Assembly: GCA_031406795.1 (NCBI GenBank)
Contig: JANOHV010000104.1
Location: forward strand, 1-32,905
DNA: 32,905 nucleotides
DNA from: DATDCY01 sp031406795 [NCBI: Candidatus Rokuibacteriota bacterium]
GTDB taxonomy: Bacteria > JAUVQV01
Direction of reading: 5' to 3'
The notes below the pieces were generated by a model, which did not search any database, had not been told where the DNA came from, and was given only the letters and a program-made list of their open reading frames with translations. Shown here piece by piece: positions 1 through 14,075 of this stretch (its first letter is position 1; each line of letters starts with the position of its first letter). The translations under genes and the position numbers were made by a program.

Positions 1-828
1 CTGGATGTCCTTGACCCCGCCGATGCGCCGGAAGGCCTTCTCTTCGATCACCCGCAGCAGCTTCGCCTGCAGGTCGAAACGCATCTCGGCGATCTCGTCG
101 AGGAAGATCGTGCCGCCGTCGGCCAGCTCGAAGAGCCCCTTCTTCGTCCCCTTGGCGTCGGTGTAGGCGCCGCGCTCGTAGCCGAAGAGCTCGCTCTCGA
201 GCAGCTGCTCGGGCAGCGAGGCGCAGTTGACGGCCATGAACGGGCGCTCGGCGCGCGCGCCGGTGTAGTGCAGCGCCTTCGCGACCAGGTCCTTGCCGGT
301 GCCGCTCTCGCCCTGGAGCAGCACGGTGGAGGCGCCGGAGGAGGCGACCCGCGCGACCAGGTCGAGCACGGCGCGCATCGGGGCGCTGACCGCGACCACC
401 CGGTCGAGGGAGAAGCGGGCCGGCTGCGCCGGGCGCAGGCGCGGGACCTCCCCCCGCAGGCGGCGGGGGTCGGGGCCCGTCCTGATCGAGAGCTTGACCC
501 CCTCGAGGTTGAACGGCTTGTTCAGGTAGTCGAAGGCCCCGGCCTTCATCGCGGCCACCGCGGTGTCGACCATGCCGTAGGCGGTGATCATGATGACGAC
601 GATCTCGGGGTCCGCCGCCTTGAGCTTCTGCAACACCTCGATACCGCCCATGCCGGGCAGCTGGACATCGAGCAGGACCAGGTCCGGCGAGGACTCGCGC
701 GCCAGGCGCAACGCGCTCTCGCCGTCCTCGGCGGTGGTGACCTCGTACCCTTCCTTGGCGAGCTCCTGCTGGAGCGACCAGCGGATCAGGTACTCGTCGT
801 CGACGACCAGAATGCGTTCTTTTGTCAT
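1..828 (-). CDS. Sigma-54-dependent response regulator, NtrC family (3' end outside window)
   Basis: Only the first 276 residues are present; the rest of the AAA+ domain and the DNA-binding domain lie beyond the left edge. Residues 1-120 form a receiver domain with the acidic pair D10/D11, phospho-acceptor D54 (LLDVQLPG) and K104 in the NKPF motif. A sigma-54 activator AAA+ domain follows, with Walker A GESGTGKD and Walker [10 protein letters not shown]. The sigma-54 contact loop reads GAYTDA rather than canonical GAFTGA. By family it should hydrolyse ATP to remodel sigma-54 RNA polymerase at distant enhancers once phosphorylated. It lies 131 bp downstream of a sensor kinase on the same strand, so the two are almost certainly a cognate pair. 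The ATG at 828 begins a normal receiver domain. Target genes are unknown; the adjacent cytochrome cluster is the obvious candidate. Confidence 0.95.
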
Positions 829-959
829 AGGCCCGGCTTCCCTCAGTGGCTGTCCGTGAATGCGCGGGTGATTATAGCGCGTTCTGCGGGCCACGCGGAA
901 CCTCTTCGTCAGCGAGAACGCCCTGTCGCGCGTCTGACCGACCTCGGGGAAGCTCAGGC

Positions 960-2450
960 CTACGCCGGGACGCGCGTCTCGACGACCGGTATGCGCACCG
1001 TGAAGGTCGTGCCGACCCCCGGCTCGCTCGTCACGCTGACGGTGCCGCCGCCCTGCTCGACGATCTTGCGCGTGATCGACAGCCCCAGCCCCGTGCCTTG
1101 GGTGCGCGTCGTGTAGAAGGGGCTGAAGATTTTTTCGCGGCTGGCGGGCGGGATGCCGACCCCCGTGTCGGCGACCGTGGCCACGATGAAGCTCTGCCCC
1201 CCGTCGGCGTCCGCCTCGTCGCGCAGCGCCGTGCGCAGCGTCAGATCGCCGCCCTCGGGCATCGCCTGCGTCGCGTTGAGAATCAGGTTCAGGAAGGCCT
1301 GCTCCAGGTGCTTGCCGTCGGCCATCGTCCGGGGCAGGCCCGCGGCGAAGTCGCGATGGACCCGGACCTTCGTCCGCGCCGGGTTCGGCAGCGCGATGAA
1401 GCTCGCCCGGTCGAGGATCTCGTTGACGTCCACCGGGCTCGGTTCGCCGGTGAGCGGCTGCGCGTAGTTGAGCAGGTCGCGGATCGTCTTGTCCATGCGG
1501 TTGCACTGGTGCAGGATCTGGTCGGCCACCTCGCGCCGCGGGTCTTCGCGCGGGAAATCGTCGGCGAGGACCTGCACCGCCCCGGAAATGCCGGCGAGCG
1601 GGTTCTTGATCTCGTGAGCGACGTTCGCCGCCAGCTCGCCGATGCTCGCCAGGCGCTCTGCGCGAATCAGCTGCTCGGTGTGGAAGCGCTCGATCTCGCG
1701 CTGGGTGGTATCGAGCTTCTCGATCATCGAATTGAGGCTGCGACCCAGGCTGCCGAGCTCGTCGCGGCGGGGCAGGCGCACGCGGGCCGAGAGATCGCCG
1801 CCTTCGGCGCGGCGCATCGCCTGCACGAGGTTCGAAATCGGCCGGTTGACCTGGACAGCGAAGATCAGCCAGATCGCGAAGCCGACCAGCGCGATGGTCA
1901 CCACCGCGGAACTGGCGAGGAACGTCCGGTTCTCGGCGACCTTGGCGTCCGTCTTCTTCATCGAGAGGCAGAGCTCGAAGATCGACAGCACCTCGCTGCT
2001 GGTCACGTGGCAGGCGCGGCAGGCGGTGTCGTTGCGGATCGTCTCGACCATGCAGAAAGCGTTGTAGCCGTGCCCGCCGCGGTACGGCATGCTCGGCACG
2101 CCGGCCTTGAAGATCTCCAGGCCGATGTCCTCGATCGTCAGGCCGACTTCCTGCTTGTCGGCGGACTTGGTGACCTTGCCGTTCTCGTCGAAGATCCGCA
2201 GGCTCTCGATGTCCGGGACGATGCCGATGCGCTCGAAGATCCCCTGGACGTCCTGGGCGCACTCGCCGCGCATGTCGTGCTGGATGCTCTTGACGATGGC
2301 GTGCGTCAACACCGCCGCCTGGTCCTTGGTCGTGTCGATAAACTGGTTGCTCTGGGCCTCGATGATGTAGAAGTACGAGCCCCCGACGCAGAGAACGAGG
2401 ATCAGCGTGACCAGCGCGGCGATCTTGCCGCGCAGCGTTGTCAGCCACAT
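960..2450 (-). CDS. Membrane sensor histidine kinase with periplasmic c-type heme motif
   Basis: The 496-residue protein has TM1 at about residues 9-30, a periplasmic sensor region at 31-178, TM2 at about 179-200, HAMP at about 201-253, a dimerization domain with H279 (AHEIKNPL), and an ATPase domain with the N box near 388-394 (LILNATQA), DTGVGI at 428-433 and GTGLGL at 452-457. The sensor region contains CRACH at 144-148, the consensus for covalent c-type heme attachment, shortly before TM2. Heme attachment would have to occur outside the cytoplasmic membrane, which fits this topology and the System II genes of the same gene run. I infer sensing of redox state or a small ligand such as O2, NO or CO through heme; the ligand cannot be read from sequence. 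The response regulator follows 131 bp downstream. Kinase identity is certain; heme binding is inferred from one motif. Confidence 0.95.
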
Positions 2451-2492
2451 GGCGTCATGGGGTCTGGCATGGAGAAGGAAGTTCGAGGCGGC

Positions 2493-2706
2493 GGGAGGGG
2501 ATCAACCCCTCCCCTACAGGAACAAAGACAGATCTGACATGCGTCCCAAAGCTCGGAAACGGCGCAGGGTCGAAAAGGGGATTCTTCATAGGTAGATTCG
2601 CCGTATGGGCGGGAGGGGGTGAACCCCTCCCCTACGGGAACGGGGAGAAATGTGTCGTTCAGCCCCAGGCCTCGACACGGCGTAGGGGCGGGATTCATTC
2701 CCGCCC
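2493..2706. repeat. Three REP-like palindromes upstream of the sensor kinase
   Basis: The 271-bp gap between the ferredoxin gene and the kinase holds three 25-bp elements: 2493-2517 (minus orientation), 2611-2635 (minus) and 2682-2706 (plus). Each has a GTAG foot, an 8-bp stem and a 5-nt loop. The first two have the stem GGGAGGGG/CCCCTCCC; the third has GGGCGGGA/TCCCGCCC. The second and third form an inverted pair with GTAG ends facing inward. They would lie in the transcript between the two genes and could affect its stability or termination. Confidence 0.85.
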
Positions 2707-2721
2707 GAACCTGCGTGCCGA

Positions 2722-3567
2722 TCACGAAGCGACCCGCGCGCCGGCGGGCGTGGGCAGCTCCGCGGGCGCGGCCGACGGCAGGTTTTCGAAGACCGTCTGG
2801 TACGAGACCACCGGGCAGGCGGTGCACTCCAGGCAACGGATGCAGTCCACCGAGCGCTCGTTCTGCCAGATGCTGATGTCCATCGGGCAGTTCTCGCGGC
2901 AGCGGTCGCAGCGCGTGCAGGAGCCGTGGTCGACGCGCATCTGGTAGACGCTGAAGGAGTTGAAAAACGAGAAGATGGTGCCGAGCGCGCAGGCCGTGCG
3001 ACAGAACGGCCGCTTCGCCGCGGCTGACCAGACGGCGAAGAGCGAGAGGATCGCGAGCTTGATGAAGAACATCTTCACCAACATCGCGCGGATGCTCTCG
3101 TCGAGCAGCGACCAGGGGATGCCGGCGATCAGGATGCCGTCGGGGCAGAGCTTCGAGAACCAGGGCTCCTGGGTGATCGCCGAGAGGGTGAAGACCAGGC
3201 CGGCGAGGACCAGGTACTTGGCGTAGGTCAAGGCCTTGGGGATGGCGATCTTGACGCTGCGCACCTTGTACAGCAGGTCCTGGAAGAAGCCGAACGGGCA
3301 GAGCCAGCCGCAGCACATCCGGCCGACGACGGCGCCGATGGCCGCCAGATAGCCCACCACGTAGGCCGGTATCGCCCCGCCGACGATCGCGAAGTGCTGG
3401 ATCGTGCCGATCGGGCACGCGAAAAGCGCGCCGGGGCAGGCGTAGCAGTTGAGCGTCGGGGTGCAGTACTCTTTGAGCGAGCCCTGGTAGATCGCCTTGT
3501 TGGTGAAGCCGAGCAGATACCCGTTCTGCCCGAACGTCGCGAGGATTTGAAAAAGTCGTCGTTTCAT
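2722..3567 (-). CDS. Membrane-bound 4Fe-4S ferredoxin, NapH/NosR/CcoG-like
   Basis: The 281-residue polytopic protein has cysteine motifs at C41/C44/C51 (CYACPGALFACP), a CCGWLCPFG motif at 85-93 typical of NapH/NosR/CcoG-type proteins, and two C-terminal [4Fe-4S] ferredoxin motifs at C217-C220-C223-C227 and C242-C245-C248-C251. Hydrophobic segments lie at about 60-82, 114-132 and 163-182. Proteins of this group pass electrons between the quinone pool and periplasmic redox partners, or handle redox-sensitive metal centres. Within a run of periplasmic cytochromes, the simplest inference is a quinol-side electron input or output module. The ATG at 3567 has only a weak Shine-Dalgarno sequence (GGGTGAC). 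A role in cytochrome assembly, as for CcoG in copper handling, is an alternative. Confidence 0.9.
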   Translation of the reverse strand: MKRRLFQILATFGQNGYLLGFTNKAIYQGSLKEYCTPTLNCYACPGALFACPIGTIQHFAIVGGAIPAYVVGYLAAIGAVVGRMCCGWLCPFGFFQDLLYKVRSVKIAIPKALTYAKYLVLAGLVFTLSAITQEPWFSKLCPDGILIAGIPWSLLDESIRAMLVKMFFIKLAILSLFAVWSAAAKRPFCRTACALGTIFSFFNSFSVYQMRVDHGSCTRCDRCRENCPMDISIWQNERSVDCIRCLECTACPVVSYQTVFENLPSAAPAELPTPAGARVAS

Positions 3568-3623
3568 GTCACCCGGGAATCGTCATCGCGCCGGCGACGC
3601 TAAATATTTGTTAGCCTTCACGC

Positions 3624-3692
3624 GGGAGGGTATGAAACCCTCCCCTACGACCCGGATCGTTGACGACGTAGGGGCGGGATTTATTCCCGCCC
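3624..3692. repeat. Inverted pair of REP-like palindromes (BIME-like)
   Basis: Copy 3624-3648 is in minus orientation and copy 3668-3692 in plus orientation, separated by 19 bp, with GTAG feet facing each other. They sit in the 182-bp gap between the 41-residue membrane peptide gene and the ferredoxin gene. The remainder of that gap shows no recognisable feature. Confidence 0.85.
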
Positions 3693-3749
3693 AAAATCGC
3701 AACGGCATCGCGCTTTGTTGGGGGGTCAACCGACCCCGATGCAGCTGAG

Positions 3750-3875
3750 TCAGACGAGTGTTGCATTGAAGAGCGTGTCGCCGATCTGATCGGCGAGCAC
3801 GCCCCAGACCAGCGCCCCGACCGCGAGCGCGGCGGCGACGATAGCGACGATCTTTTCCCGGCGGGGCCGATTCAT
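3750..3875 (-). CDS. 41-residue single-pass membrane peptide
   Basis: This short ORF encodes a basic N-terminus (MNRPRREK), one hydrophobic helix at about residues 9-28 rich in Ala, Val, Leu and Ile, and a short polar tail (ADQIGDTLFNATLV). It lies 29 bp downstream of the redoxin-TPR gene, on the same strand and within the same run, and 182 bp ahead of the membrane ferredoxin gene. The positive-inside pattern puts the C-terminus in the periplasm. Its Shine-Dalgarno sequence is weak, so translation may depend on coupling to the upstream gene. I recognise no family. A small subunit or assembly factor for the ferredoxin or cytochrome complex is the natural guess. A chance ORF is possible, but the clean helix and position argue against it. 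Confidence 0.6.
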   Translation of the reverse strand: MNRPRREKIVAIVAAALAVGALVWGVLADQIGDTLFNATLV

Positions 3876-3904
3876 CGAGTTACACCACGGGGACGAGGAC
3901 GGCC

Positions 3905-5089
3905 CTAGACCTCATCCCCGGTCGAAGGGAGGTTCATCAGGATCTCCAGCGCGCGGCGGAAATCCGCGGACGCCCGTTTGAGATCCCCCCCCGCTTCGCT
4001 GCCCTGCGCCCGGCGGAAATAGGTGCCGGCGTCAAGCGGGTTGAGCTCGAGCGCGGCCTTGAACTTCTCCTCCGCGTCCGCGGACTTGCCCTGCCTGGCG
4101 AGCACGAGGGCCAAATTCGAGACCGCGGGCGTGTACGTCGGGTCCAACGCGACGGCCTTCTCGAAAGCCGCGAAGGCCTCGTCGATCTTCCCGAGCTCCA
4201 GCAGCGCCTCGCCCTTGCCGGTGTGCGCGGTCACGTCGTTCGGGGCGATCGCCGCCGCCGCGCTGAACTGTTCCGCGGCCTGCTGCACGCTCTTCGGGTC
4301 CTTCTTGGCGAGCAGCAGCTGGCCGAGGAACACGCGGGGGGCGGCGTAGGTAGGATCCGCCGCCGCGGCCAGTTCGAGCTGCTCCATGGCCTTGTCACGA
4401 TTGCCGCGCTGGAACATCGTGCGGCCGAAGTTGAAGTGCCGCAGCGCCTTCGAGTCGGGCTTGTAGACCGGCACGGCAGCCACGGCATCGGCCTTGGGCG
4501 CCTCGCGCACGCCGAGCAGGATCTCGACCGACTCGCGGATGCCCTCCCCGGTGGAGCGCAGGTAGCTCGCCGTCTCGTGGACGATCTTGCCCTCGGCGTT
4601 GATCACCGCGGTCGAGGGTGTCGCCACGACACCAAACGCGTTGTAGGTCTCGAGGCCGGCGTCGATCACGATCGGCACCGTGAGCTTGAGGCTCGTCTTG
4701 AGCTCCTCGATCTGCCGCCGGTCGTCCGGGCCGAGGCTCAGCCGGTTGACGTTTACCGCGAGAACCTGAAAGCCCTTGTCGGCATACTGGGTGGCGAGCT
4801 TCTGCGCGTCCTCGAGAGCCGGCGTCGAGCGCGGGCTCCAGGTGGCGAAGAACACCAGGAGCGTTGCCGGCTGCCCCTTGACCTGGGCGAGCGTGTACTC
4901 CTTCCCGTCGAGAGTCTTCAACGAGAACTCCGGCACTTCCATCCCGACCTTCAGGTATTTGAAGGCCGCCCCCGCCTGGGGGATGGCGAAGAGCATGACG
5001 AGCAGGGCTGCGAATCCCGTCAGTACGTGGGTCGCCGTGCGCCACCCCCGACGGGGCGCTGCGGCCGGCGGCGGACCTTGAAGCGGCAT
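3905..5089 (-). CDS. Thioredoxin-fold/TPR fusion with CXXC replaced by SXXS
   Basis: The 394-residue protein has an N-terminal hydrophobic segment (about 20-42, signal peptide or anchor), a TlpA/ResA-like redoxin domain (about 45-195) and at least four TPR units (about 215-385). Where TlpA/ResA proteins carry W-C-x-x-C, it reads W84-S85-P86-R87-S88, so both redox cysteines are serine; the cis-proline region (VVATPST) is retained. It therefore cannot act as a thiol oxidoreductase by the usual mechanism. A periplasmic scaffold or chaperone that binds cytochromes or apocytochromes is inferred from the TPRs and the flanking multiheme genes. The Shine-Dalgarno is strong (AGGAGGGTC before ATG 5089), and the gene begins 12 bp after the pentaheme cytochrome gene ends. 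Confidence 0.9.
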   Translation of the reverse strand: MPLQGPPPAAAPRRGWRTATHVLTGFAALLVMLFAIPQAGAAFKYLKVGMEVPEFSLKTLDGKEYTLAQVKGQPATLLVFFATWSPRSTPALEDAQKLATQYADKGFQVLAVNVNRLSLGPDDRRQIEELKTSLKLTVPIVIDAGLETYNAFGVVATPSTAVINAEGKIVHETASYLRSTGEGIRESVEILLGVREAPKADAVAAVPVYKPDSKALRHFNFGRTMFQRGNRDKAMEQLELAAAADPTYAAPRVFLGQLLLAKKDPKSVQQAAEQFSAAAAIAPNDVTAHTGKGEALLELGKIDEAFAAFEKAVALDPTYTPAVSNLALVLARQGKSADAEEKFKAALELNPLDAGTYFRRAQGSEAGGDLKRASADFRRALEILMNLPSTGDEV

Positions 5090-5101
5090 GACCCTCCTCC
5101 T

Positions 5102-5782
5102 TCAGTAGAGCAGGAACTGTTTCTCGGAACCGTGCGGATTGTGGCACTCCGGACACTGCTTGCTCGCGCTCTTCTCGATGTGCGACTGGCTGCGGCTCTG
5201 GGCATGGCACTGCATGCACAGCGTCCGCACCCCCATGACCAGGAAGGCCGGGTTGGCCGAACCGTGCGGATCGTGGCAGATGCTGCACTGCCCGGCACCG
5301 AGCGGCCCGTGCAGGTACTTGTACCCGGTTTTCGGGTCGTGGCACGTGTTGCACAGCTTGGCCTCGGACACCGGCGAGGTCCGGCCGACGCCCTGCGGGT
5401 GACAGGCCTTGCACTCCCCTTCCTGGACCGGGTCGTGGTAGCGGTACGAGCGTCCCCCGGCGTCCTTGGTCTGGTACTCGAATGTCGACTGCCGGGATTC
5501 CGCCCCGGACTTGACCACCAGGGTGTTCTTGCCCGGGACAAGCGCGAGCGGGCCGGTGAACGCCTTCCCGACCTGTTTGATCCCGTCGACCTTGCGCCCG
5601 TTGAGCACGACCTCGAGCGTTCCCGAGGACCCGCTCCCGATCAGGGTCAGCGGCGAGCGATCGAGCGTGGCGCCATCCGGCGGGGCGAGGATCTTGAGCT
5701 CCTCGCCCGACGCGCCGCCGGCGGTGATCAGGGTTGCCGCCAGGACGACGCCGGCAACAGCGGCGGAACCGAATCGTTTCAT
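5102..5782 (-). CDS. Periplasmic pentaheme c-type cytochrome with N-terminal beta domain
   Basis: The start at ATG 5782 gives 226 residues, a clear signal peptide (about 1-26) and a well-placed Shine-Dalgarno (AGGAGCGAC). The frame stays open further upstream, but that part is low-complexity Arg/Ser and overlaps the preceding gene. Residues about 28-100 look like a beta-sandwich or Ig-like domain without cysteines. Five CXXCH motifs follow: CKACH, CNTCH, CSICH, CMQCH and CPECH, with the HGPLGAGQCSICHDPHG pattern typical of paired-CXXCH cytochromes. It is probably a periplasmic electron carrier or a subunit of the same complex as the larger cytochrome encoded two genes upstream. Its start codon lies 7 bp after the stop of the upstream redoxin-TPR gene, so the genes are co-transcribed. 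Confidence 0.93.
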   Translation of the reverse strand: MKRFGSAAVAGVVLAATLITAGGASGEELKILAPPDGATLDRSPLTLIGSGSSGTLEVVLNGRKVDGIKQVGKAFTGPLALVPGKNTLVVKSGAESRQSTFEYQTKDAGGRSYRYHDPVQEGECKACHPQGVGRTSPVSEAKLCNTCHDPKTGYKYLHGPLGAGQCSICHDPHGSANPAFLVMGVRTLCMQCHAQSRSQSHIEKSASKQCPECHNPHGSEKQFLLY

Positions 5783-5789
5783 GTCGCTC

Positions 5790-6785
5790 CTACTGCTTGC
5801 CGAAGAGCCGCGTGAGCGCCAGCTTGTAGCTCTCGACGGCCTTGGCGAGGTCGCCCTTCTTCTCATAGGCCTTCCCCATCTCGTAGTAGACTTTCTCGGG
5901 TTTGGGGTTCATCTTGATCGCCGACTGGAAATATTCGAGGGCCTTGTCCGTTTCGCCCTTCTTCGCGTGGGCCATGCCGAGGCCAACCTTGGCGTCGTTG
6001 CTGGTCGGGTCGCACTTGATGACGTAGGTGAACTCCCCGATCGCCTCGTCGACCTTGCCGTCGTCGAGAAAGGTGTGCCCGAGCAGGATGTGCGCATCGC
6101 AGAAGCCGGGGTCGAGCTTGAGGATCTCCTGAAGCTTCGCGACCGCCTTCTCCTTCATCCCGCGCTCCATCAGCACCATCGCGAGGCCGTACATCTTCTT
6201 GGCCTCCTTCTCCTCGGTGCTCGCCGCGGGGCCCTCCTGGGGGCGGATGGCGAGCTCGGCGTCCCCGGCCTTCTTCTCCCCGAGGGCCACCAGGGCGTAC
6301 TCGTTGGTGATCAGCTCGAGGTCAAAGGCGATCTGGTTCTCCTCGTGAATGAGCACGCCGGCCTTGTCGACCCAGATGACTTCGGGCATCGCCACGACGC
6401 CAAGCGTCCCGTAGAGCTCCTCGGTCCCCATCAGGATCGGAAAGCCCGCGCCTTCGGCGAGGGCCTTCGCGTCCTCGGCCTTGCCCTTGCCGAAGTAGAC
6501 GCCGAGGTAGACGACGCCCTTCTCCTTCATGGCCGCCCAACTCTTGCCGACGCGCTTGAACGCGTTGGCGGTGCTCGGGCCCTCCTTGAAGAAGACCATC
6601 ACGTGGGCCTGGCCCGGGGCGAAGCCGGCGTCGGCGCCGGCGGTGTCCTTGAGCGTGAACGCCGGCATCTTGTCGCCGTTCTTGACCTTGTTGAAACTCT
6701 GGGCCGGTGCGGCCAGCGCGATTAGCGCGGCCAGCGCGAAGATGGCCGGAAGGACCCGGGTGCGGTTCTTGATGCGGCTTGTCAT
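5790..6785 (-). CDS. Second redoxin/TPR fusion lacking active-site cysteines
   Basis: The 331-residue protein has a signal peptide at about 1-29, an AhpC/TSA-Redoxin-like fold at about 32-165 and a TPR array at about 195-325. The region equivalent to the thioredoxin active site reads VFFKEGPSTANAF, with no cysteine; VVAMPEVIWVDKAG marks the retained cis-proline strand. The domain order matches the other redoxin-TPR protein of this run, but the sequences are clearly diverged, so they are old paralogs rather than a recent duplication. The gene lies between the 13-plus-heme cytochrome (16 bp upstream) and the pentaheme cytochrome (7 bp downstream). Its start (ATG 6785) has the Shine-Dalgarno GGGAGG. 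A role in docking or assembling cytochromes in the periplasm is inferred. Confidence 0.9.
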   Translation of the reverse strand: MTSRIKNRTRVLPAIFALAALIALAAPAQSFNKVKNGDKMPAFTLKDTAGADAGFAPGQAHVMVFFKEGPSTANAFKRVGKSWAAMKEKGVVYLGVYFGKGKAEDAKALAEGAGFPILMGTEELYGTLGVVAMPEVIWVDKAGVLIHEENQIAFDLELITNEYALVALGEKKAGDAELAIRPQEGPAASTEEKEAKKMYGLAMVLMERGMKEKAVAKLQEILKLDPGFCDAHILLGHTFLDDGKVDEAIGEFTYVIKCDPTSNDAKVGLGMAHAKKGETDKALEYFQSAIKMNPKPEKVYYEMGKAYEKKGDLAKAVESYKLALTRLFGKQ

Positions 6786-6801
6786 GCTCAGCCTCCCCGC
6801 C

Positions 6802-8130
6802 CTAGTACTTGACCGCGGTCTCGCGGTCGTAGGTCTGCTCGCGGTGGCAGCCGACCACGCAATTGCCGCCCGTCGGCAGCTTCGTGAACTTGACCGGCAG
6901 CTGCCAGCCGCCGGTCCCGAAGGGAACCTTCTCGCGGATGTGCTTCTCCTGGTCGCCGGCGTGCATCTCGTGGCAGGCCTTGCAGCTGCGGCCCTTCTTC
7001 TGGTTGATGTGGAAGTAGTGCAGGTTGCGGTTGCCGTTGCGGAAACCGGTCAGCGTCGAGGTGACCTCGGTCAGCGCCATGTCCTTGTTGTGACAATCCC
7101 AGCAGATGGCGTAGTTCTCGGTCTTGTATTCCATGTAGAACTCGGGCGGGAAGAACTTCTTGAGGATCTTCACGTAGTCCGAGCCGTGCGTGTCGTGGCA
7201 GGCATAGCAGTCGTCCTGCTGGACCGGGCCGTGCAGCGACTTGGAGGCCAGCACCCGGGAACCGATGTCCTTGTGGCAGCTGTAGCAGATCTGCTTGGTC
7301 GAGAGCTTCAGCTGGCGCACATAGTCGGAGGAGTGCGGCGTGTGGCAGCCGGTGCAGGTGCCGCTCTTGAGCGCGCCGTGCTGGGTCTTGGCCTTCTTGA
7401 CGTGCTCCTGGACCTTCGAGTGGCAGGAGAAGCACAGCGCGGTCGGCTCGTTCTTGAGCAGGTACTTGTAGGCGCCGCTGTGGGAGTCGTGGCAGACGGA
7501 GCAGGACTCGGTGACCGGCTTGTGCACGCTCTTGCGGGTGAACTCGGCCTTGCGGTCCTCATGGCAGAGAAAGCACAGCGTGTTGCCGGAGGCCTCGAGC
7601 TGGTACTTGTAGTCCGAGGCGTGCGGGTTGTGGCAGACGTTGCAGTCGCCGGCGGCGACCGGGCCGTGGAGGAACTCCTTGTTCGTCTTGTTGTTCTCGT
7701 GGCAGGAGAAGCAGAGCGCGGAGGTCGTCGGCTTGCGCATCTGGAACTTCGCGTCGGACTGGTGGGGATCGTGACAGGCGATGCAGTCGCCCATCGCCAC
7801 CGGCCCGTGGATGAACTTGCCCTGCAGCTTCTTCTGGAGCGACTCGTGACAGATGAAACACAGGTCCTTGCCCTTGGCGGCGATCGTGAAGCTCGCCGAA
7901 CTGTGCTTCTCGGGGGTGTAGCTGGTGCGGGTGCGGTGGCAGGCGGTGCACACGCCGGCGCCGACCGGGCCGTGGACGTACTTGGCCTTGCCCATCCCCG
8001 GGTGGCACTTCTCGGAGAGACAGTTGTCGCCGCCCGGCGACTGTGCCCGAACGGGAACCGCGGCAAACAGCGCGGCTGCGACGAGCGCAATCAGGACGAA
8101 CAGCGTGTGGTGCAACTTGGTACCCTGCAT
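6802..8130 (-). CDS. Large paired-CXXCH multiheme cytochrome c (13 CXXCH + CX4CH + CX3CH)
   Basis: The start at ATG 8130 gives 442 residues, a signal peptide (about 1-30) and a strong Shine-Dalgarno (AAAGGAGG); the open frame extends upstream only as non-coding-like sequence. Thirteen canonical CXXCH sites are visible, arranged as repeats in which an LCFxCH-type motif alternates with an HGPVxxGDCxxCHxPHxSD unit. Two further atypical sites bracket them: CLSEKCH at residues 37-43 (CX4CH) and CVVGCH near the C-terminus (CX3CH). CX4CH is known to bind heme in some cytochromes c3, so up to 15 hemes are possible. With no transmembrane or lipobox segment, it is likely a soluble periplasmic wire. The System II maturation genes lie directly upstream. 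Confidence 0.95.
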   Translation of the reverse strand: MQGTKLHHTLFVLIALVAAALFAAVPVRAQSPGGDNCLSEKCHPGMGKAKYVHGPVGAGVCTACHRTRTSYTPEKHSSASFTIAAKGKDLCFICHESLQKKLQGKFIHGPVAMGDCIACHDPHQSDAKFQMRKPTTSALCFSCHENNKTNKEFLHGPVAAGDCNVCHNPHASDYKYQLEASGNTLCFLCHEDRKAEFTRKSVHKPVTESCSVCHDSHSGAYKYLLKNEPTALCFSCHSKVQEHVKKAKTQHGALKSGTCTGCHTPHSSDYVRQLKLSTKQICYSCHKDIGSRVLASKSLHGPVQQDDCYACHDTHGSDYVKILKKFFPPEFYMEYKTENYAICWDCHNKDMALTEVTSTLTGFRNGNRNLHYFHINQKKGRSCKACHEMHAGDQEKHIREKVPFGTGGWQLPVKFTKLPTGGNCVVGCHREQTYDRETAVKY

Positions 8131-8228
8131 GTCGCAAGCCTCCTTTGTGCTACGAACCATCACGCATCTCCCGGTAGACCGCCAGGCCACTGCAAGCTCC
8201 CTCGCGCACCGCCGCGGTTCGTCTACGA

Positions 8229-9284
8229 TCAACCGTAGCTGTGGAGGCCCGAGAGCACGAAGTTCACGCCGATGTAGGTGAAGATCACCGCTGCGAAGCC
8301 GATCACCGAGAGGACCGCAGTGCTTTTGCCGCGCCACCCCGCGGTGAAGCGGGCATGCAGGAAGGCGGCGTAGATCAGCCAGGTGATCAGGGACCAGGTC
8401 TCCTTCGGGTCCCAGCTCCAGTAGGTGCCCCAGGCGTAATTGGCCCAGGCCGCGCCGGTCACGATGCCGAGCGTCAGCAGCGGAAAACCGACCATGATCA
8501 TCTTGTAACTCAGGTCATCGAGGATCCGCAGACCGGGGAACAGGGCGGCCAGGCGCTCGTGGTAGAGCGCGCCGACGTACCAGAACAGCGCGAAGATCCC
8601 GACGGCGGCGATCCAGGAGACGATCTTCACCCCCGAGGAGTGGCTCGCGAACGAGGCCGCGAACAGATGCGGCTGGGCCACGCCCGCGACTTTCTGCACG
8701 AGGAAGTCCAGCATCGTGGCGGCGAACAGCGTGAACATCGTCACCAGGCTCGCCATGCCGACGACATAGAAGGCGTCCTTGCGCTTCTCCGCCGAGAGAA
8801 TCAGGTAGAGGATGCTGACCCCGAAGGATATCGTGAAGGCGGCATAGCCGAGAAAGCTGGTGATGACGTGCACGGTGAGCCAGTTGCTCTGGAGCGCCGG
8901 CACGAGCGGCTCGATCTCCTGCGAGATGTTCGGCGCGATGGAGATCGACGCAATCGCCAGGAAGCCCAGCGGCGCGGCGACGACGCCGAGCGCCCGATTG
9001 CGGTAGACCCGTTCGAAAATCAGGTAGATCAGGATGATCGACCAGGACCAGAAGACCATCGACTCGTACATGTTGGAGAGCGGGATGTGCCCGAACCCCA
9101 TGGCGTAGGATTCGCGCCAGCGCAGACCGATGGCCGCGGTCTGCACCAGAAACCCGACGACGGTCACCAGGGTCGCCGCCAGGCCGACCTTTTCGTTGCG
9201 GAAGGCCAGGTAGACGAAGTACGCCACCGTCGCCACGAGGTACAACACGAGCGATACGTTGAAGACCGCCGAACTGTTCATCAT
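8229..9284 (-). CDS. ccsA: System II cytochrome c maturation protein CcsA (ResC-type heme handling protein)
   Basis: This 351-residue polytopic protein carries the tryptophan-rich WWD-type signature WGTYWSWDPKETW at about 285-297, within CcsA/ResC family sequence (WANYAWGTYWSWD, then TWLIYAAFLHAR). CcsA and ResB together move heme across the membrane and attach it to CXXCH motifs; conserved histidines such as that in HVITSFLGY are heme ligands in the family. It lies 75 bp after resB and 98 bp before the large cytochrome gene. Two ATG codons are adjacent (9284 and 9281); the GGAGAG Shine-Dalgarno is only 1-3 nt from the first, so the second may be used. Databases call this family CcsA, CcsB or ResC inconsistently. 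Confidence 0.95.
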   Translation of the reverse strand: MMNSSAVFNVSLVLYLVATVAYFVYLAFRNEKVGLAATLVTVVGFLVQTAAIGLRWRESYAMGFGHIPLSNMYESMVFWSWSIILIYLIFERVYRNRALGVVAAPLGFLAIASISIAPNISQEIEPLVPALQSNWLTVHVITSFLGYAAFTISFGVSILYLILSAEKRKDAFYVVGMASLVTMFTLFAATMLDFLVQKVAGVAQPHLFAASFASHSSGVKIVSWIAAVGIFALFWYVGALYHERLAALFPGLRILDDLSYKMIMVGFPLLTLGIVTGAAWANYAWGTYWSWDPKETWSLITWLIYAAFLHARFTAGWRGKSTAVLSVIGFAAVIFTYIGVNFVLSGLHSYG

Positions 9285-9359
9285 TCTCTCCGGGTCCCTG
9301 AATCCAGATGGCCGTTCGTTATTTCTAGCACAAACCCCATGCCCCTGCCAAGGAGCTCG

Positions 9360-10871
9360 CTAGCCGCGGGCCTCACCCACGGCATGGATCGCGTCGCCGA
9401 GACGCTCGAACTCCTCGGTGAAGCGCTCGCGATTCTTGTTGGCGTTGCCCGCGAGCAGCACCTCCGTCTTGCCGCCGACCTCCCGCAGCCGCACCCAGAC
9501 CCGGCGGTGCGAGGAGAAGAAGGCGAACCAGAGCCCGAAGACCATCAGCGTGCAGCCGGCCCAGATCACCCAGACCCCGGGGTCGTAGACGACCTGGAGC
9601 CCCGTGTACTGCAGGCTGCTGAAGTCGACGAGCGTCAGATCGACCGGCAGGCCCGCGACCGTCTTGAGGTCGGGCCGGAGCTTGAAGAGATAGGTCAGCT
9701 TGCTCGTGCCGTCGGGGAGCAGCACCTGAACCGCGGCCACGGGGTTCTTCGCCTGGTTCGAGCGGCTGGTCGGCCGCCCCTGTTCGTCCTGCGCGAAGTC
9801 CGGGAAGATCCGCTGCATCTGCAGCCGCACGCCCGTCCCCGGGACTTCGAGGGTTTCGCTCCCGGTGAAGCTCAGGTCGTGCCCGGCGCCGGTCTTGAGG
9901 TCCACGGCGCGGATGCTCGCCTTGAGCCCGCGCCCGGTGTCGCCGAAGCTCGACTGGTAGAACCAGATCCCGTCGTATTGCAGCGGTGTGTTGACCTCGA
10001 TCCGCACAGCGGGCAACTCCTTGCCCTGGTCGATGACGGTGAGCGTGCTGAAAAAGTCCTTCGGCCGCTGTCCGCCCGGGTAGTAGTCCACCTGGAAGTC
10101 GTCGCAGCGCACCTTGAACGGCAGGGTCGCCATCCGGCTCTCGTCGCCGCGCATCATGATCTGGTCGGAGGTTTCCCCCTCCGTGATCTGCATGTAGGCC
10201 TTGAAGCCGTAAACGCTGCCGAGGAGGCCGCCGACGAAGATCATGATGATGGAAAAGTGCGTCGCATAGATGCCGAGCCGGCTGTAGGCGCCCTTTTGCC
10301 CGAAGAGGTAGAACGCGTCGTCGCGGTCGCTCTCGCGCTTGCCGAAGCCGCCCTTTTTCAGCGCGGCGGCAGCGACCGCGGCGGCCTCCGCCCGCGGCAG
10401 GCGCAGCGAGAGGGTGCGGCGATTGGGGCTGGCCTTGAAGCCGGACTCCTCGAGTTCGACCTTGGGGCGCGCCATGATCCGCCAGGTCTGCGGCAGGCGG
10501 CGCAGAGAACAGACGATCAGGCTGGTGCTGAGCAGGCCGAGCAGCGCATAGAAGTACCAGGTCTGATAGAGATGGAAAAAGCCAATGCGTTCCGAGATGT
10601 CGAATGCCCGCTGCGCGCGGCCCGCGTCGCCGAAGAAATCCTGGAACAGGCGCAGGTTGTCGGCGACTTCCCCGATGTTTTTCTGCTGCAACACGGTGCC
10701 GATGATCGAGATCGACGCGAGGATGATCAGGGTGACGACCGCGACGTGGACCGAGCTGAAGAACGAGAGCAGCGGGTCGTACCACGGCTTCGTGACGACG
10801 GCCGGCGGGGCGTCTGCGGGCGGGGGGGAAGTCTGTTTTTCCTCAACCACGGGGGGGGACTCTCCTTGCAT
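9360..10871 (-). CDS. resB: System II cytochrome c maturation protein ResB (Ccs1)
   Basis: The 503-residue protein has a ResB-type N-terminal core (LLSFFSSVHVAVVTLIIL then ISIIGTVLQQ), transmembrane segments at about 42-62, 107-127 and 222-242, a large periplasmic domain and a final transmembrane segment near 435-458. It is the partner of CcsA in the heme export and ligation complex. No Shine-Dalgarno precedes ATG 10871, whereas AAGGAGAG lies just inside the frame, 8-9 nt before a GTG at 10850, so translation may really start there. Between the two candidates is a run of eight G (plus strand 10851-10858), a site prone to slippage or sequencing error. A 15-bp perfect palindrome lies immediately upstream. 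Confidence 0.93.
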   Translation of the reverse strand: MQGESPPVVEEKQTSPPPADAPPAVVTKPWYDPLLSFFSSVHVAVVTLIILASISIIGTVLQQKNIGEVADNLRLFQDFFGDAGRAQRAFDISERIGFFHLYQTWYFYALLGLLSTSLIVCSLRRLPQTWRIMARPKVELEESGFKASPNRRTLSLRLPRAEAAAVAAAALKKGGFGKRESDRDDAFYLFGQKGAYSRLGIYATHFSIIMIFVGGLLGSVYGFKAYMQITEGETSDQIMMRGDESRMATLPFKVRCDDFQVDYYPGGQRPKDFFSTLTVIDQGKELPAVRIEVNTPLQYDGIWFYQSSFGDTGRGLKASIRAVDLKTGAGHDLSFTGSETLEVPGTGVRLQMQRIFPDFAQDEQGRPTSRSNQAKNPVAAVQVLLPDGTSKLTYLFKLRPDLKTVAGLPVDLTLVDFSSLQYTGLQVVYDPGVWVIWAGCTLMVFGLWFAFFSSHRRVWVRLREVGGKTEVLLAGNANKNRERFTEEFERLGDAIHAVGEARG

Positions 10872-10890
10872 TCACGGTTGCCGTAAAGCA

Positions 10891-10925
10891 GTCACGGCCG
10901 GCCGGACCAGCCGGCCGGCCGTGAC
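10891..10925. terminator. Perfect 15-bp inverted repeat between cytochrome c3 and resB
   Basis: GTCACGGCCGGCCGG (10891-10905) and its exact reverse complement (10911-10925) flank the loop ACCAG. The hairpin would be very stable but has no adjoining T-tract on either strand, so it is not a classic intrinsic terminator. It sits between the abundant-type small cytochrome gene and the membrane maturation genes. Attenuation or mRNA-end stabilisation would fit that position; a protein-binding site is also possible. Confidence 0.6.
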
Positions 10926-10995
10926 CTCAATTCTTCGCTCGCACCCTGTCCGGTCGTCGCCGACCCTTCAGGTGCGTCGGAGGCGCGGCTGAGGA

Positions 10996-11430
10996 CTACT
11001 CGTCCGCGCCGCCGTGACACTCCTTACACTTCGTCGGAGCCTTGGCGGCCGTAGCCTTGGCATCCGTCTTGTGGCAAGCGATACACCGGCCCGTCTTGGC
11101 GTGGATCATCTCGTAGGTGTTGACCTGCTTGTCCTTGGCCTCGGGACCGTGGCAGTCGAAGCAGAGCTTGGCCGGCTTGCCGCCTTCCTTGAGCTCCTTA
11201 TCCGTGTGGTGACAAACGGTGCAGCCAAGGTCGGCCCCGTGCTTCTTGTGGTTGAATGTGACCGGATTCTTCGCCTTCTTGCCTTCCTTGATCTTCGCCG
11301 CCGGCCACTTGTCGATCGGCTTGTCAATGGTCAGCTTCCCGTCCGGCGTCATGTGATGAGACGCGAAGGCAGCGCCGACCGCGAAGACCGAGAACATCAC
11401 CATCATCCCAACGACAATACTTTTCTTCAT
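10996..11430 (-). CDS. Class III tetraheme cytochrome c3
   Basis: The 144-residue precursor has a signal peptide at about 1-23. The mature part follows the class III pattern: VTFNHKKHG supplies distal histidines, then CTVCHH, CFDCH, CIACH (preceded by EMIHAKTG) and CKECH, giving four heme sites. Family members are low-potential periplasmic shuttles. It is the first gene of the minus-strand cytochrome run, with an excellent Shine-Dalgarno (GGAGGAG, 6 nt before ATG 11430). It is transcribed divergently from the TMTC-like gene, so the promoter of the whole run should lie in 11431-11543. I see no convincing -35/-10 or -24/-12 pair there. Confidence 0.95.
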   Translation of the reverse strand: MKKSIVVGMMVMFSVFAVGAAFASHHMTPDGKLTIDKPIDKWPAAKIKEGKKAKNPVTFNHKKHGADLGCTVCHHTDKELKEGGKPAKLCFDCHGPEAKDKQVNTYEMIHAKTGRCIACHKTDAKATAAKAPTKCKECHGGADE

Positions 11431-11543
11431 TCTTTACTCCTCCCTTTCCGTGTTCAGTAAGGTTTACTTGCTGACAAAAACTTGTACTTCATACACCCGC
11501 GGGCGGCGGGTTGTCAACCACCACCGGCGAGGCTGAACCGACA

Positions 11544-13511
11544 GTGCTTTCCTTTCGACGCGCGATCGTAAATAATCAGCCGGTGAAGTCCGCCAAATGG
11601 CTCATTTTCGCGGTATTGCTGATCTTGACCGCGGCCGTGTTCCGCCCGCTTCTCGAGAATGATTTCATCAACTTTGACGACGACCAGTACGTCACCGACA
11701 ACCGCCATGTGCAGCAGGGATTGAAACGGCAGGAATTCGCGTGGGCCTTCACCACGCGCGATGCGGCCAACTGGCACCCCCTGACCTGGCTCTCCCACAT
11801 GCTCGATGTGGAATTATATGGACTGAATCCGCGCGGTCACCACCTGACGAGCCTCCTCCTCCACCTGGCGAACGCCGGCCTCCTTTTTTTCGTTTTCAAC
11901 CGGATGACGGGAGGACTGTGGGCGAGCGCCTTCGTGGCCGCGGTTTTCGCCGTGCACCCCCTGCACGTGGAATCCGTAGCCTGGGTCGCGGAGCGCAAGG
12001 ACCTGCTGTCCGCCTTCTTCTCGCTGCTGACCCTGTGGGCGTATCACCATTACTCCAGTCGCCCCGGGGTTGGCAGATATGTCCCGGTGATCGTTCTTTT
12101 TTCTCTGGGGCTCATGGCTAAACCGATGGTAATCACCCTGCCGCTCGTCTTCCTGCTCCTGGACTACTGGCCCCTCGGGCGCCTGTCCGACGGGCGCGGG
12201 ACGGGAGGCTCCCTGCGACTCTCCACCCTGGCCCAGCGACTCCTGGAGAAAGCCCCCTTGTTTCTGCTCTCGGCGGGATCGGCGGCAATCACGCTTTCGG
12301 CACAGAAGTCGGGCGGAGCCGTCCAGGATGCGGATTTTCCGCTCGCCATCCGTGCTTTCAACGCGCTCGCGAGCTACGCCCACTATCTCTGGAAGATGGT
12401 CTGGCCGCGGAACCTCGCCGTTTTTTATCCGCATCCCGGCAACGACCTGCCGTGGTGGCTTGGCGCAGGCGCCGGGCTCCTTCTGCTCGCGAGTTCGATT
12501 GCGGTCGTGCGGGCGGGACGGCGGCTGCCTTTCCTCCCCGTCGGCTGGTTCTGGTATCTCGCGACCCTCATCCCCGTCATCGGCCTCGTGCAGGTCGGCA
12601 GACAGGGAATGGCGGACCGCTACACGTATCTCCCACTCACCGGCGTCTTCATCATGGTCGCCTGGGGCGCGCCCGCCCTCCTGAGCGGCTGGCGCCGGCG
12701 GGACCGGGCGCTTGCCCTGGCGGCGCTCCTGATCCTGCCGGCCCTCGGGGTCCGCGCGCACCACCAGGCCGCCGCCTGGCGGGACAGCCTGACTCTCTTC
12801 TCGCAGGCACTGCTGGCAACCCGCGACAACTGGCTGGCCGAATACAACGTGGGTCTCCTCCTCGCCGGGCGGGGGAATGCCGCCGGGGCGGTCGCGCATT
12901 ACCGCAGCGCGCTGCGCATCAGGCCCGACTACACCGAGGCCCACATCAACCTCGGCACCCTTCTCGCCGCCGAGCGCAAATTCGAGGAGGCGGCAGGCCA
13001 TTTCAGGGAGGCGATCAGCCGGGATCCGCTGATGTCCAGGCTCGGGGCCAACACGGCATTCGTCAGCCTGGGCAACGTCCTCTTGGAACTTGGCCGGACC
13101 GACGAGGCCGAAGGGATGTATCAGCAAGCACGCCGGGCCGACCCCCGTGATCCGGCGCCCCTCTACTGTCTCGCGCTCCTCGAGACCCGGCGATCGAATC
13201 TCCCGGGGGCCGAGACCCTGTACCGGGAGGCGCTGCGGATGAAACCCGACTACCAGGAGGCCGCGAACAACCTAGCGATCCTCCTGGTGAACCTCAGCAG
13301 AACCGGGGAAGCCGTTGGCACGCTGGGGCGGATCCTCGAGCTGAAGCCCGATTTTGCCCAGGGCCATTTCAACATCGCCACGATCCTCTCCACGCAGGGA
13401 AAGATCGATCTGGCGATCGACCATTATCGTGCGGGGCTCCAGATCGAGCCGGGCAACGGGGAAGCCCGGCTTGCCCTCGAGCGAGCCCTGCGGGCGGTGT
13501 CGCCCCGGTAG
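11544..13511 (+). CDS. Polytopic membrane protein with C-terminal TPRs, TMTC-like
   Basis: The N-terminal two thirds are multi-spanning and carry sequences typical of bacterial TMTC-like TPR proteins (FINFDDDQYVTDN, WHPLTWLSHMLDVELYG, AVHPLHVESVAWVAERKD). The last 210 residues or so are TPR units. TMTC relatives are GT-C fold glycosyltransferases, and the DD near the first periplasmic loop fits such an active site; a bacterial substrate is not known to me. The start is uncertain: TTG 11511, GTG 11544 and GTG 11583 are all in frame, with no ATG nearby. I chose 11544 because GAGG lies 11 nt upstream; TTG 11511 falls within a small GC hairpin (11495-11511). From 11544 the protein has 655 residues. 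A diheme cytochrome gene follows 87 bp downstream. Confidence 0.88.
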   Translation: MLSFRRAIVNNQPVKSAKWLIFAVLLILTAAVFRPLLENDFINFDDDQYVTDNRHVQQGLKRQEFAWAFTTRDAANWHPLTWLSHMLDVELYGLNPRGHHLTSLLLHLANAGLLFFVFNRMTGGLWASAFVAAVFAVHPLHVESVAWVAERKDLLSAFFSLLTLWAYHHYSSRPGVGRYVPVIVLFSLGLMAKPMVITLPLVFLLLDYWPLGRLSDGRGTGGSLRLSTLAQRLLEKAPLFLLSAGSAAITLSAQKSGGAVQDADFPLAIRAFNALASYAHYLWKMVWPRNLAVFYPHPGNDLPWWLGAGAGLLLLASSIAVVRAGRRLPFLPVGWFWYLATLIPVIGLVQVGRQGMADRYTYLPLTGVFIMVAWGAPALLSGWRRRDRALALAALLILPALGVRAHHQAAAWRDSLTLFSQALLATRDNWLAEYNVGLLLAGRGNAAGAVAHYRSALRIRPDYTEAHINLGTLLAAERKFEEAAGHFREAISRDPLMSRLGANTAFVSLGNVLLELGRTDEAEGMYQQARRADPRDPAPLYCLALLETRRSNLPGAETLYREALRMKPDYQEAANNLAILLVNLSRTGEAVGTLGRILELKPDFAQGHFNIATILSTQGKIDLAIDHYRAGLQIEPGNGEARLALERALRAVSPR

Positions 13512-13598: not shown

Positions 13599-14075
13599 AT
13601 GAATATCCTGAACTTCCGCGCGTACAGATGGACCGTGGCAGCGGCTCTGGGTGTTGTCGCCATGGCGCCGTCGCAGGCCGGCGCCGATGCCGGCCGGGAC
13701 CGGATGCAGCGGGGGAAGGAAGCATTCGTCTCCCAGTGCCTGAACTGCCACCAGACCGTCGACGAGGCGGCCGGAGGCTATCGCATGCAGCCTGCCTGGC
13801 AGAGGATTGTCGCGGACATGGTCGCCCGGGGGGCGAAGCTCGACGAGGCGCAGCAGGAAGCCGTCGTCGAATACGTCTCCGGCAGGATGCTGATGGTGGC
13901 CAAGTGCTCCTCGTGCCACACCTCCAACCGCCCGCTGACCGCGAGCAAAAGCCTCGAAGAGTGGAAGGGCTCGGTTGAGAACATGGTTCAGAGGATGCCT
14001 CCGAACCTGAGGCCGACCGCAGAGCAAATCGAAAAACTCACCCTTTTTCTCGCGGTGGAGCGCCCCCGCCCGTAG
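13599..14075 (+). CDS. Small periplasmic diheme c-type cytochrome
   Basis: The 158-residue protein has a signal peptide at about 1-29 and two CXXCH motifs: CLNCH at 47-51 and CSSCH at 103-107. The spacing of about 55 residues suggests two small single-heme domains, the second followed by the helix LEEWKGSVENMVQRM, as in some c-type cytochromes that use a Met or His distal ligand. The ATG at 13599 has the Shine-Dalgarno GGAGGG. It follows the TMTC-like gene on the same strand. Its last 38 bp overlap, tail to tail, the 3' end of the Sua5 gene. It is probably a soluble electron carrier; the partner is unknown. Confidence 0.92.
   Translation: MNILNFRAYRWTVAAALGVVAMAPSQAGADAGRDRMQRGKEAFVSQCLNCHQTVDEAAGGYRMQPAWQRIVADMVARGAKLDEAQQEAVVEYVSGRMLMVAKCSSCHTSNRPLTASKSLEEWKGSVENMVQRMPPNLRPTAEQIEKLTLFLAVERPRP

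Follow-up and report, generated by a model that had tools for sequence, protein, structure and literature searches.

What function could unite multiheme cytochromes, the genes that attach their hemes, a membrane iron–sulfur protein, a tiny membrane gene, and a sensor kinase with a CXXCH motif of its own in one run of genes? The question is raised by a 32,905-nucleotide stretch of DNA (the window) from DATDCY01 sp031406795 (contig JANOHV010000104.1), the minus strand of which carries eleven genes between positions 1 and 11,430. These genes and their families had been proposed in a preliminary description made from the letters of the window, and all eleven were confirmed by open reading frame (ORF) listing and by Pfam and NCBIfam searches, which back the family assignments of all genes except the tiny one. 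The reading favoured here, to which we give about an even chance, is that the run forms a locus devoted to System II cytochrome c maturation, which carries its own multiheme clients, is controlled by a heme c sensor kinase, and relies on a NapH-like protein and a predicted selenoprotein, the product of the tiny gene, for thiol redox chemistry.

In such a locus, the tiny product would be a membrane protein whose C-terminal U-x-x-C faces the periplasm, and the NapH membrane Fe–S protein, fed from the cytoplasm or from the quinol pool, would pass electrons to it; together they would keep apocytochrome cysteines reduced, or otherwise handle thiol redox, for heme attachment by ResB–CcsA. The redoxin-TPR proteins, having lost their redox chemistry, would chaperone the long apocytochrome, and the kinase would become competent only once its heme had been attached, signalling the redox state or nitric oxide (NO) to the NtrC-type regulator. 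The cytochromes would act as a wire through the periplasm, ending at an acceptor whose genes lie outside the locus.

The System II genes and the recurrence of their neighbourhood

In the direction of transcription, a tetraheme c3-like cytochrome is followed by ResB, CcsA, a 13-CXXCH cytochrome, redoxin-TPR 1, a pentaheme cytochrome, redoxin-TPR 2, the tiny membrane gene, a NapH-like gene, a CXXCH-containing histidine kinase, and an NtrC-type regulator. Both members of the System II pair, which are parts of the cytochrome c synthetase, score above their cut-offs: ResB (9360–10,871) matches PF05140 at 3e-102, and CcsA/CcsB (8229–9284) reaches 294 bits with TIGR03144, for which the cut-off is 187.6. 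Synteny was examined in an even draw of 297 genomes of the phylum to which the Geotalea genome G001 belongs, taken to be Desulfobacterota in the broad sense. Homologs of the large cytochrome were found in 39 of these genomes (E 1e-60) and homologs of redoxin-TPR 1 in 22 (E 1e-20), and the surroundings of the cytochrome were inspected in 37 of the 39 (all but G251 and G299). Among the 15 genomes of the closest set, whose 13-CXXCH cytochrome scores at least 540 bits, redoxin-TPR and NapH genes lie near the cytochrome in all 15, the counts for ResB/CcsA and for the CXXCH kinase being 12 each; in the loci that lack the kinase (L111, L112, and L124), the stretch ends at NapH or within about 1.3 kb of it. 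The preliminary description had held that the redoxin-TPR/cytochrome core should recur with resB and ccsA rather than be scattered without a shared neighbourhood, and this is what was found: each of these parts recurs in 12 to 15 of the 15 genomes, the gene order is repeated on many other contigs to an extent that exceeds chance, and with it recurs the association of multiheme cytochromes with System II and with a sensor kinase of the heme c type. The module would set apart a group of Desulfobacterota that have a multiheme assembly line of their own.

The remaining parts are less constant. Across the 16 module loci, made up of L130 and the closest 15, the search picked up redoxin-TPR 2 in 10, the pentaheme gene in 5, and a Ppc-like gene in 2; these parts are either variable or too diverged for it. 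The other 22 of the 37 Desulfobacterota genomes are looser, with a redoxin-TPR match nearby in seven and an NtrC-type regulator in nine. In Nitrospirota, the cytochrome was found in 32 of 198 genomes (E 1e-60), and of the 20 genomes examined there are redoxin-TPR or TPR matches in 14, the kinase in 7, and ResB/CcsA in 5. A scan of 80 CcsA loci contained the full module in none, as judged by annotation, and a genome scan with redoxin-TPR 1 as the query returned no match.

The combination had been regarded as unfamiliar although its parts were known, but it does have a relative. By gene order, the nearest appears to be the Geobacter ppcA-resB-ccsA-GSU0615-GSU0616-GSU0617-omcE locus (GSU0612–0618), which we take to correspond to the Geobacter-type loci L064, L069, and L070 from gene order and recall rather than from comparison with G. 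sulfurreducens sequences. These loci encode a triheme cytochrome, ResB, CcsA, and cytochromes with 10, 8, and 4 CXXCH motifs, and in L064 and L069 a heme-free ORF precedes the last of these. The 10-CXXCH cytochrome of L069 is 39% identical to residues 110–442 of the large cytochrome of the window, and in all three loci it terminates in the same GGTCVVGCH motif; the 8-CXXCH cytochrome is weakly like the pentaheme cytochrome of the window (65–78 bits to C5 or to the large cytochrome), which its N-terminal domain also resembles by eye. Unlike the window, the Geobacter-type stretch contains no recognised redoxin-TPR protein, NapH, selenoprotein, or kinase. Published excerpts describe GSU0613 as ResB-like and GSU0614 as ResC/HemX-like (PMC7894505), identify OmcE as GSU0618 (PMC13194489), and name GSU0616, a mutant of which, uncomplemented, reduced U(VI) about 30% faster than the wild type (PMC1829397). 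A literature search for a cluster of multiheme cytochromes, redoxin-TPR proteins, and ResB/CcsA returned, in the portions of text available, only work on NrfA; the main texts of PMC12133095, PMC10553843, and PMC12977616 do not mention thioredoxin, TPR, or ResB, and those of the last two do not mention NapH.

The tetraheme cytochrome at the head of the window locus (10,996–11,430; 4 CXXCH; PF02085, 5e-17) is a periplasmic type in the position of PpcA, and the pentaheme cytochrome (5102–5782; 5 CXXCH; PF09699, 9e-24) carries an N-terminal Ig-like domain, for which the BiPBP_C and Glucodextran_B matches in Pfam are weak and under their cut-offs. Close spacing, of 7 to about 29 bases, is confined to the genes from the 13-CXXCH cytochrome to the tiny gene; the other intergenic gaps measure 75–271 bases, and two of them hold repeat-like sequence, so that a single transcript for all genes is not established. 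The two repeat-like gaps (2451–2721 and 3568–3725), which lie on both sides of NapH, are by eye G+C-rich sequence of the type GTAGGGGAGGGGTT..CCCCTCCC.

Further genes were noted around the module and its relatives. Just upstream of the module in the window lie, on the plus strand, a divergent membrane TPR protein (11,511–13,511) and a small cytochrome with two CXXCH motifs (13,599–14,075), neither of which has a relative at E 1e-3 among the other neighbour ORFs of the 16 module loci. At the ResB end of the module, nine of the 16 full-module loci carry a recurring flavoprotein (for example, L112:7652-9454 and L113:14083-16014), which was not seen in the window, lies on the opposite strand in L122, and accompanies loci of which L118 and L122 lack ResB. 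It has a cysteine-rich N-terminus, membrane helices, and Fer4_20 and Pyr_redox_2 (GltD-like) domains, the Pfam assignment being that of the L112 copy, and might supply the module with electrons from the cytoplasmic side. The 13-CXXCH cytochrome has relatives in other clusters, at L206–L216; 7 of these 11 loci combine a 12-CXXCH cytochrome with matches to the kinase and to the NtrC-type regulator, and 4- and 5-CXXCH cytochromes are often present as well. In L205 and L209, 23-CXXCH cytochromes combine a C-terminal part like the module cytochrome with extra repeats and lie near an 8-CXXCH protein; in L209, ResB–CcsA also lies upstream of the 23-CXXCH cytochrome.

NapH, the tiny gene, and thiol chemistry

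The NapH-like membrane Fe–S protein (2722–3567) is distant from the known NapH families, matching TIGR02163 at 3e-13 with 50.0 bits, far under the cut-off of 213, and PRK09477 with 44 bits, for which the cut-off is 234; family searches found no NapG or NapC partner among the eleven genes. Its cysteines are nevertheless well kept, as 17 of the 18 in the window protein recur in 30 or more of the 33 sequences compared, and a CX5CX2CX6C stretch (residues 35–51) precedes CX3CP and C-terminal cysteine clusters. Forty instances of the tiny gene were compiled from the window, L073, and 38 matches in 35 of 395 genomes to a DNA pattern for its LSCIGVG-stop ending that is blind to the preceding codon (the reversed pattern gave 2 matches). 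In 33 of the 40, NapH follows no more than 600 bases downstream, in the same orientation; two more instances (L095 and L100) lay on shortened stretches, the longer versions of which (L115 and L120) show NapH, and the remaining five are each a second copy at another place in a module genome. Of the five, four adjoin a TlpA-like protein with CVAC, and one of the four also has NapH upstream. Compact loci run tetraheme cytochrome-ResB-CcsA-tiny-NapH in L264 and L267, and ResB-CcsA-tiny-NapH-TlpA(CXXC) in L229/L265, without the large cytochrome in the stretch; their genomes (G237, G190, and G138) belong to the draw of 297 and lie outside the group of 39 in which the large cytochrome was found at E 1e-60. 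As far as gene contexts can indicate, this pattern connects NapH and the predicted selenoprotein with thiol chemistry and with maturation by System II.

NapH-type proteins are quinol-linked ferredoxin subunits, and a purely respiratory module can be drawn from this: electrons taken from quinol by NapH, with the help of the tiny selenoprotein as an accessory subunit, would reach the 13-CXXCH cytochrome and the tetraheme shuttle, while ResB and CcsA just accompany them. The presence of NapH near the large cytochrome in all 15 of the best loci and the MtrA-like model of that cytochrome would suit such an arrangement, which is close to the passage of quinol electrons to a periplasmic acceptor envisaged in the preliminary description. 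It is nonetheless less likely than a maturation locus: NapH and the tiny gene join ResB–CcsA even without the large cytochrome, which favours a maturation or thiol role over a simple quinol-to-cytochrome role, the NapH scores fall far below the family cut-offs, and Nitrospirota retain the cytochrome and redoxin-TPR genes with NapH at none of the 20 cytochrome loci.

That last absence also weighs against the reading of a dedicated maturation locus, as do several other observations. The tiny gene, searched for by its exact pattern, was found in none of the 198 Nitrospirota genomes. Near the cytochrome, the NtrC-type regulator occurs in just 3 of the 15 closest genomes, and ResB/CcsA are not nearby in 3 of the 15 best loci, one of which meets a contig end (L127) and two of which do not (L118 and L122). 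In G033 and G234, the module cluster holds only a remnant of the tiny gene (in L117 and L115, respectively; in G033, neither the TGA nor the Cys codon downstream of it is intact), with an intact TGA copy elsewhere, and in G187 the sole intact copy lies outside the module. Sigma-54-type sites are not enriched (32 matches with at most 2 mismatches, against 40.8 expected) and lend no support to control of the cluster by the NtrC-type regulator; promoter-like sites number 2 against 1.2 expected, and terminator-like sites 6 against 9.2. In the Geobacter relative, ppcA, gsu0615-0617, and omcE are predicted to be separate units in the excerpted text of PMC1829397, and ppcA is not expressed within a larger operon according to that of PMC12977616; since ppcA is treated there as its own transcription unit, the analogy warns that a single operon should not be assumed for the window locus. 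CcdA/DsbD (PF02683) is common, with counts of 10 of 16 for full-module genomes, 14 of 16 for other genomes that carry LSCIGVG, and 12 of 15 for comparison genomes, and a strict replacement of CcdA by the tiny/NapH pair is accordingly unsupported. Heme attachment, selenocysteine (Sec) insertion, and topology are all predictions.

The reduction of apocytochrome thiols for heme attachment is understood mainly for the CcdA/ResA and DsbD/CcmG systems. The window shares ResB, CcsA, and a ResA-like redoxin domain with the canonical System II (ResA, ResB, CcsA, and CcdA), and differs from it in that its redoxins lack CXXC, a NapH and a UxxC microprotein are present, and family assignments place no CcdA among the eleven genes. 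Within the reading of a dedicated maturation locus, a bolder version is offered tentatively, as one with clearly less than an even chance: the NapH-type Fe–S protein and the one-helix UxxC selenoprotein would form an undescribed transmembrane reductase for periplasmic thiols in System II, with cysteine-less ResA-TPR proteins as passive chaperones and a 15-heme cytochrome that is unconventional at both ends as the client. The charge distribution of the tiny protein, judged by eye under the positive-inside rule, suggests a periplasmic location for its UxxC end. Such a selenoprotein, some 49 residues long and tied to NapH and ResB–CcsA, is a testable candidate for another thiol-reduction route, and the locus points to a possible new way of providing reducing power for cytochrome assembly.

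The large cytochrome, the redoxin-TPR proteins, and the sensor kinase

The large cytochrome (6802–8130; 442 residues) contains 13 CXXCH motifs, each of which recurs at its position in at least 60 of 61 aligned sequences, rows having been selected for at least 12 CXXCH. An N-terminal CX4CH (C37, C42, and H43) and a C-terminal CX3CH (C424, C428, and H429) are invariant in 22 of 22 aligned sequences, and the protein, previously described as carrying 13 or more hemes, may possibly have 15 heme sites, two of them unconventional. Its structural model has a mean predicted local distance difference test (pLDDT) score of 79, with a poor C-terminal part, and the nearest fold is MtrA of the Mtr complex (6r2q_A; E 7e-9; template modelling (TM) score, by target, 0.62), which is also matched in sequence with 59 bits by phmmer; no MtrB-type porin is present among the module's own genes, the other neighbours not having been scanned for porins. 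NrfI and CcsA1/MccA in Wolinella are cases of dedicated heme lyases for unconventional heme motifs, and dedicated heme-lyase systems include TPR helpers. As in those systems, a lyase is encoded in the window beside a multiheme client with unusual motifs; unlike in them, the motifs CX4CH and CX3CH sit at both ends of the chain, and the need for a special lyase is a prediction. A further case, that of SirA in Shewanella, is described in an excerpt of PMC6976685.

The two redoxin-TPR proteins had been called cysteine-less, which is exact for the second; the first has two cysteines, though no CXXC at its active site. Redoxin-TPR 1 (5790–6785) matches AhpC-TSA at 7e-5 (23.2 bits, under the cut-off of 26) in addition to TPR, and CXXC is absent from the active site in all 17 sequences compared (the window and 16 loci). 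Redoxin-TPR 2 (3905–5089) is ResA-like (Redoxin, 2e-20; ResA PRK03147, 5e-17, under cut-off) with a TPR_CcmH_CycH match of 5e-10, slightly under cut-off, and has WSPRS in place of WCxxC; none of 11 sequences (the window and 10 loci) has CXXC there, the site reading WSxRS or WSxRA, or CSPRS in L118. A ResA-type CXXC redoxin is thus absent from the module's redoxin sites, the genomes' other redoxins not having been surveyed. In two Nitrospirota loci (L183 and L190), the protein in the redoxin-1 position is by eye TPR only, and the TPR part appears to be the constant feature of this position. CcmI and NrfG are apocytochrome chaperones, and because the TPR part is what stays constant, the analogy suggests the same role for the redoxin-TPR proteins.

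The preliminary description had credited the histidine kinase (960–2450) with a CXXCH of its own, and one is indeed found at residue 144, in a sensor that models as a Cache-type domain with pLDDT 84. All 31 kinase homologs compared retain the CXXCH and Met60, and Met60 may serve as an axial ligand. A fold search returned WalK sensor domains as the best matches (E 1e-6), with GSU0935 fourth (E 5e-6; TM 0.44/0.50) and GSU0582 eleventh, and without Tll0287 among the 50 best matches listed; by sequence, the sensor matched nothing in the PDB, although the fold search did, and the kinase has no Pfam match to the Tll0287-like PF11845 (sCache_heme/DUF3365) at E 0.01. The window kinase nevertheless shares the Cache fold, CXXCH, Met, and kinase context with heme c Cache sensors such as GSU0935, GSU0582, and sCache_heme (DUF3365/Tll0287). 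The regulator (1–828; PF00158 and PF00072) is of the NtrC sigma-54 type and is truncated by the left edge of the stretch.

A 2026 preprint (PMC12889525), in the part available, describes heme c Cache domains fused to signalling modules as NO binders, places GSU0935 and GSU0582 in a heme c Cache family, and reports NO binding for one signalling member. The kinase might accordingly be an NO or redox sensor tied to maturation by nothing other than its own need for heme c, with the redoxin-TPR proteins keeping a peroxide or thiol chemistry through other residues. This is rather unlikely, as ResB–CcsA lies directly before the CXXCH kinase and NtrC-type regulator in eight Nitrospirota loci (L002, L005, L006, L007, L009, L017, L018, and L022), which ties the pair to the maturation genes, and as C133 and C161 are present in 14 of 14 module kinases but in none of 17 others. 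Full-length relatives of the module kinase and regulator were also noted in L131–L133 (Geotalea, Geobacter, and another Geobacteraceae), near 23-CXXCH cytochromes in L131 and L133 and near a 4-CXXCH cytochrome in L132 and L133.

The tiny gene as a candidate selenoprotein

The tiny gene (3726–3875, minus strand) had been described as a tiny membrane peptide, but its frame continues past an in-frame TGA as FNATLV-TGA-LSCIGVG-stop, which gives 49 residues rather than 41, with the TGA as codon 42 (3752–3750). By prediction from the sequence, its product is very probably a selenoprotein of the membrane that carries a UxxC motif. A loose motif search found the same LSCIGVG ending in the window and 14 loci, which were all 15 of its matches, and a second search added the remnants L095 and L097 and, next to NapH in L049 of Desulforhopalus, a form with Cys (CLECIGIG). 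In the 40 instances, the codon before LSCIGVG is TGA in 30, TGC in 5, TGT in 5, and never anything else; one of the TGA forms, L095, is a remnant with a broken upstream frame. The invariance of LSCIGVG is in part a product of the pattern search, which demanded these residues; the Ser codons of the TGA forms vary synonymously (AGC, AGT, TCC, TCG, TCA, and TCT), and it is therefore the protein sequence that is conserved.

The bacterial Sec insertion sequence (SECIS) follows a rule: a hairpin shortly downstream of the codon with a G in its apical loop. The tiny gene has such a hairpin 12 bases 3′ of the TGA, with a 6-bp stem and a GGNU loop (GGGU, GGUU, or GGCU), which in the window reads GGGGUC-GGUU-GACCCC (3722–3737, minus strand). 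With 5 or 6 pairs, it occurs in 29 of 30 TGA forms (28 of 29 when the remnant L095 is excluded) and in 1 of 10 Cys forms (Fisher p 3.6e-7), and this one Cys form, L237, resembles the Sec forms L228–L234. The Val codon is GTC in 30 of 30 TGA forms compared with 1 of 10 Cys forms, and the bases after the stop are CCCC, CTCC, CCTC, or TCCC in 29 of the 30. Less favourable to Sec insertion are the TGA form L251, which lacks the hairpin, the free-energy z-scores, which are mostly modest, and a longer segment of the window, for which the lowest-energy fold differs from the SECIS-like hairpin and is slightly better; an Rfam scan of window positions 3600–3900 gave four weak, chance-level matches and no SECIS. 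That the TGA is an ordinary stop, as TGA is by default, behind a 41-residue peptide, with LSCIGVG an accident or part of an RNA element in G+C-rich DNA that folds readily (z of −1.3 for the window segment) and so forms a hairpin in any case, is very hard to reconcile with a heptapeptide that stays constant despite codon variation and with a TGA that is exchanged only for Cys codons and never for TAA or TAG.

The carrier genomes examined, which hold relatives of the window's tiny gene, are equipped for Sec. A tRNA-Sec match of 67–79 bits was obtained in 26 of 26 carrier genomes tested, compared with at most 50 bits in three Nitrospirota genomes that have neither the tiny gene nor SelA. SelA and SelB each exceed their cut-offs in 15 of 17 module-type genomes, none of which lacks both. 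As all 15 comparison Desulfobacterota genomes also have SelA and SelB, this machinery is necessary for the prediction but does not discriminate.

The CD1871A family has a C-terminal motif of the CxxCIGxG type, and its members, like the tiny protein, are short proteins with a membrane-helix-like stretch; they differ in that the first Cys of CD1871A is Sec in the tiny protein and in that the scores of the latter fall under the cut-off. Against the family model NF040920 (cut-off 32 bits), the window protein scores 14.4 bits and homologs 23.7, 30.4, and 18.2; one Sec homolog, with C written for U, matches the model over its full length (2–38 of 38; E 2.5e-7). By these matches, the tiny protein would be a Sec relative of the CD1871A family rather than a member of it, and the locus supplies a functional setting for small proteins of the CD1871A type, of which, as of NF040920, there is no mention in the four papers that the literature search returned. 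Table 1 of a 2026 review (PMC13188914), which is the part of that source consulted, lists 119 selenoprotein families and subfamilies without such a family, and a 2025 paper by Haft and Tolstoy cited there could describe it. Of the families credited to Haft and Tolstoy in the table, none matched; TsoA (LULAxC) is the nearest by eye and was not among the family-search matches of the tiny protein. The tiny gene is thus a candidate new selenoprotein within the locus and a candidate addition to the 119, and it suggests that ordinary gene calling would cut such a protein at its most informative residue. Two of the second copies of the tiny gene (L263 and L261) lie with the CVAC TlpA-like protein, a protein that by eye is DsbC-like with CPYC, and a 7-CXXCH cytochrome, a neighbourhood that is possibly another thiol-redox locus.

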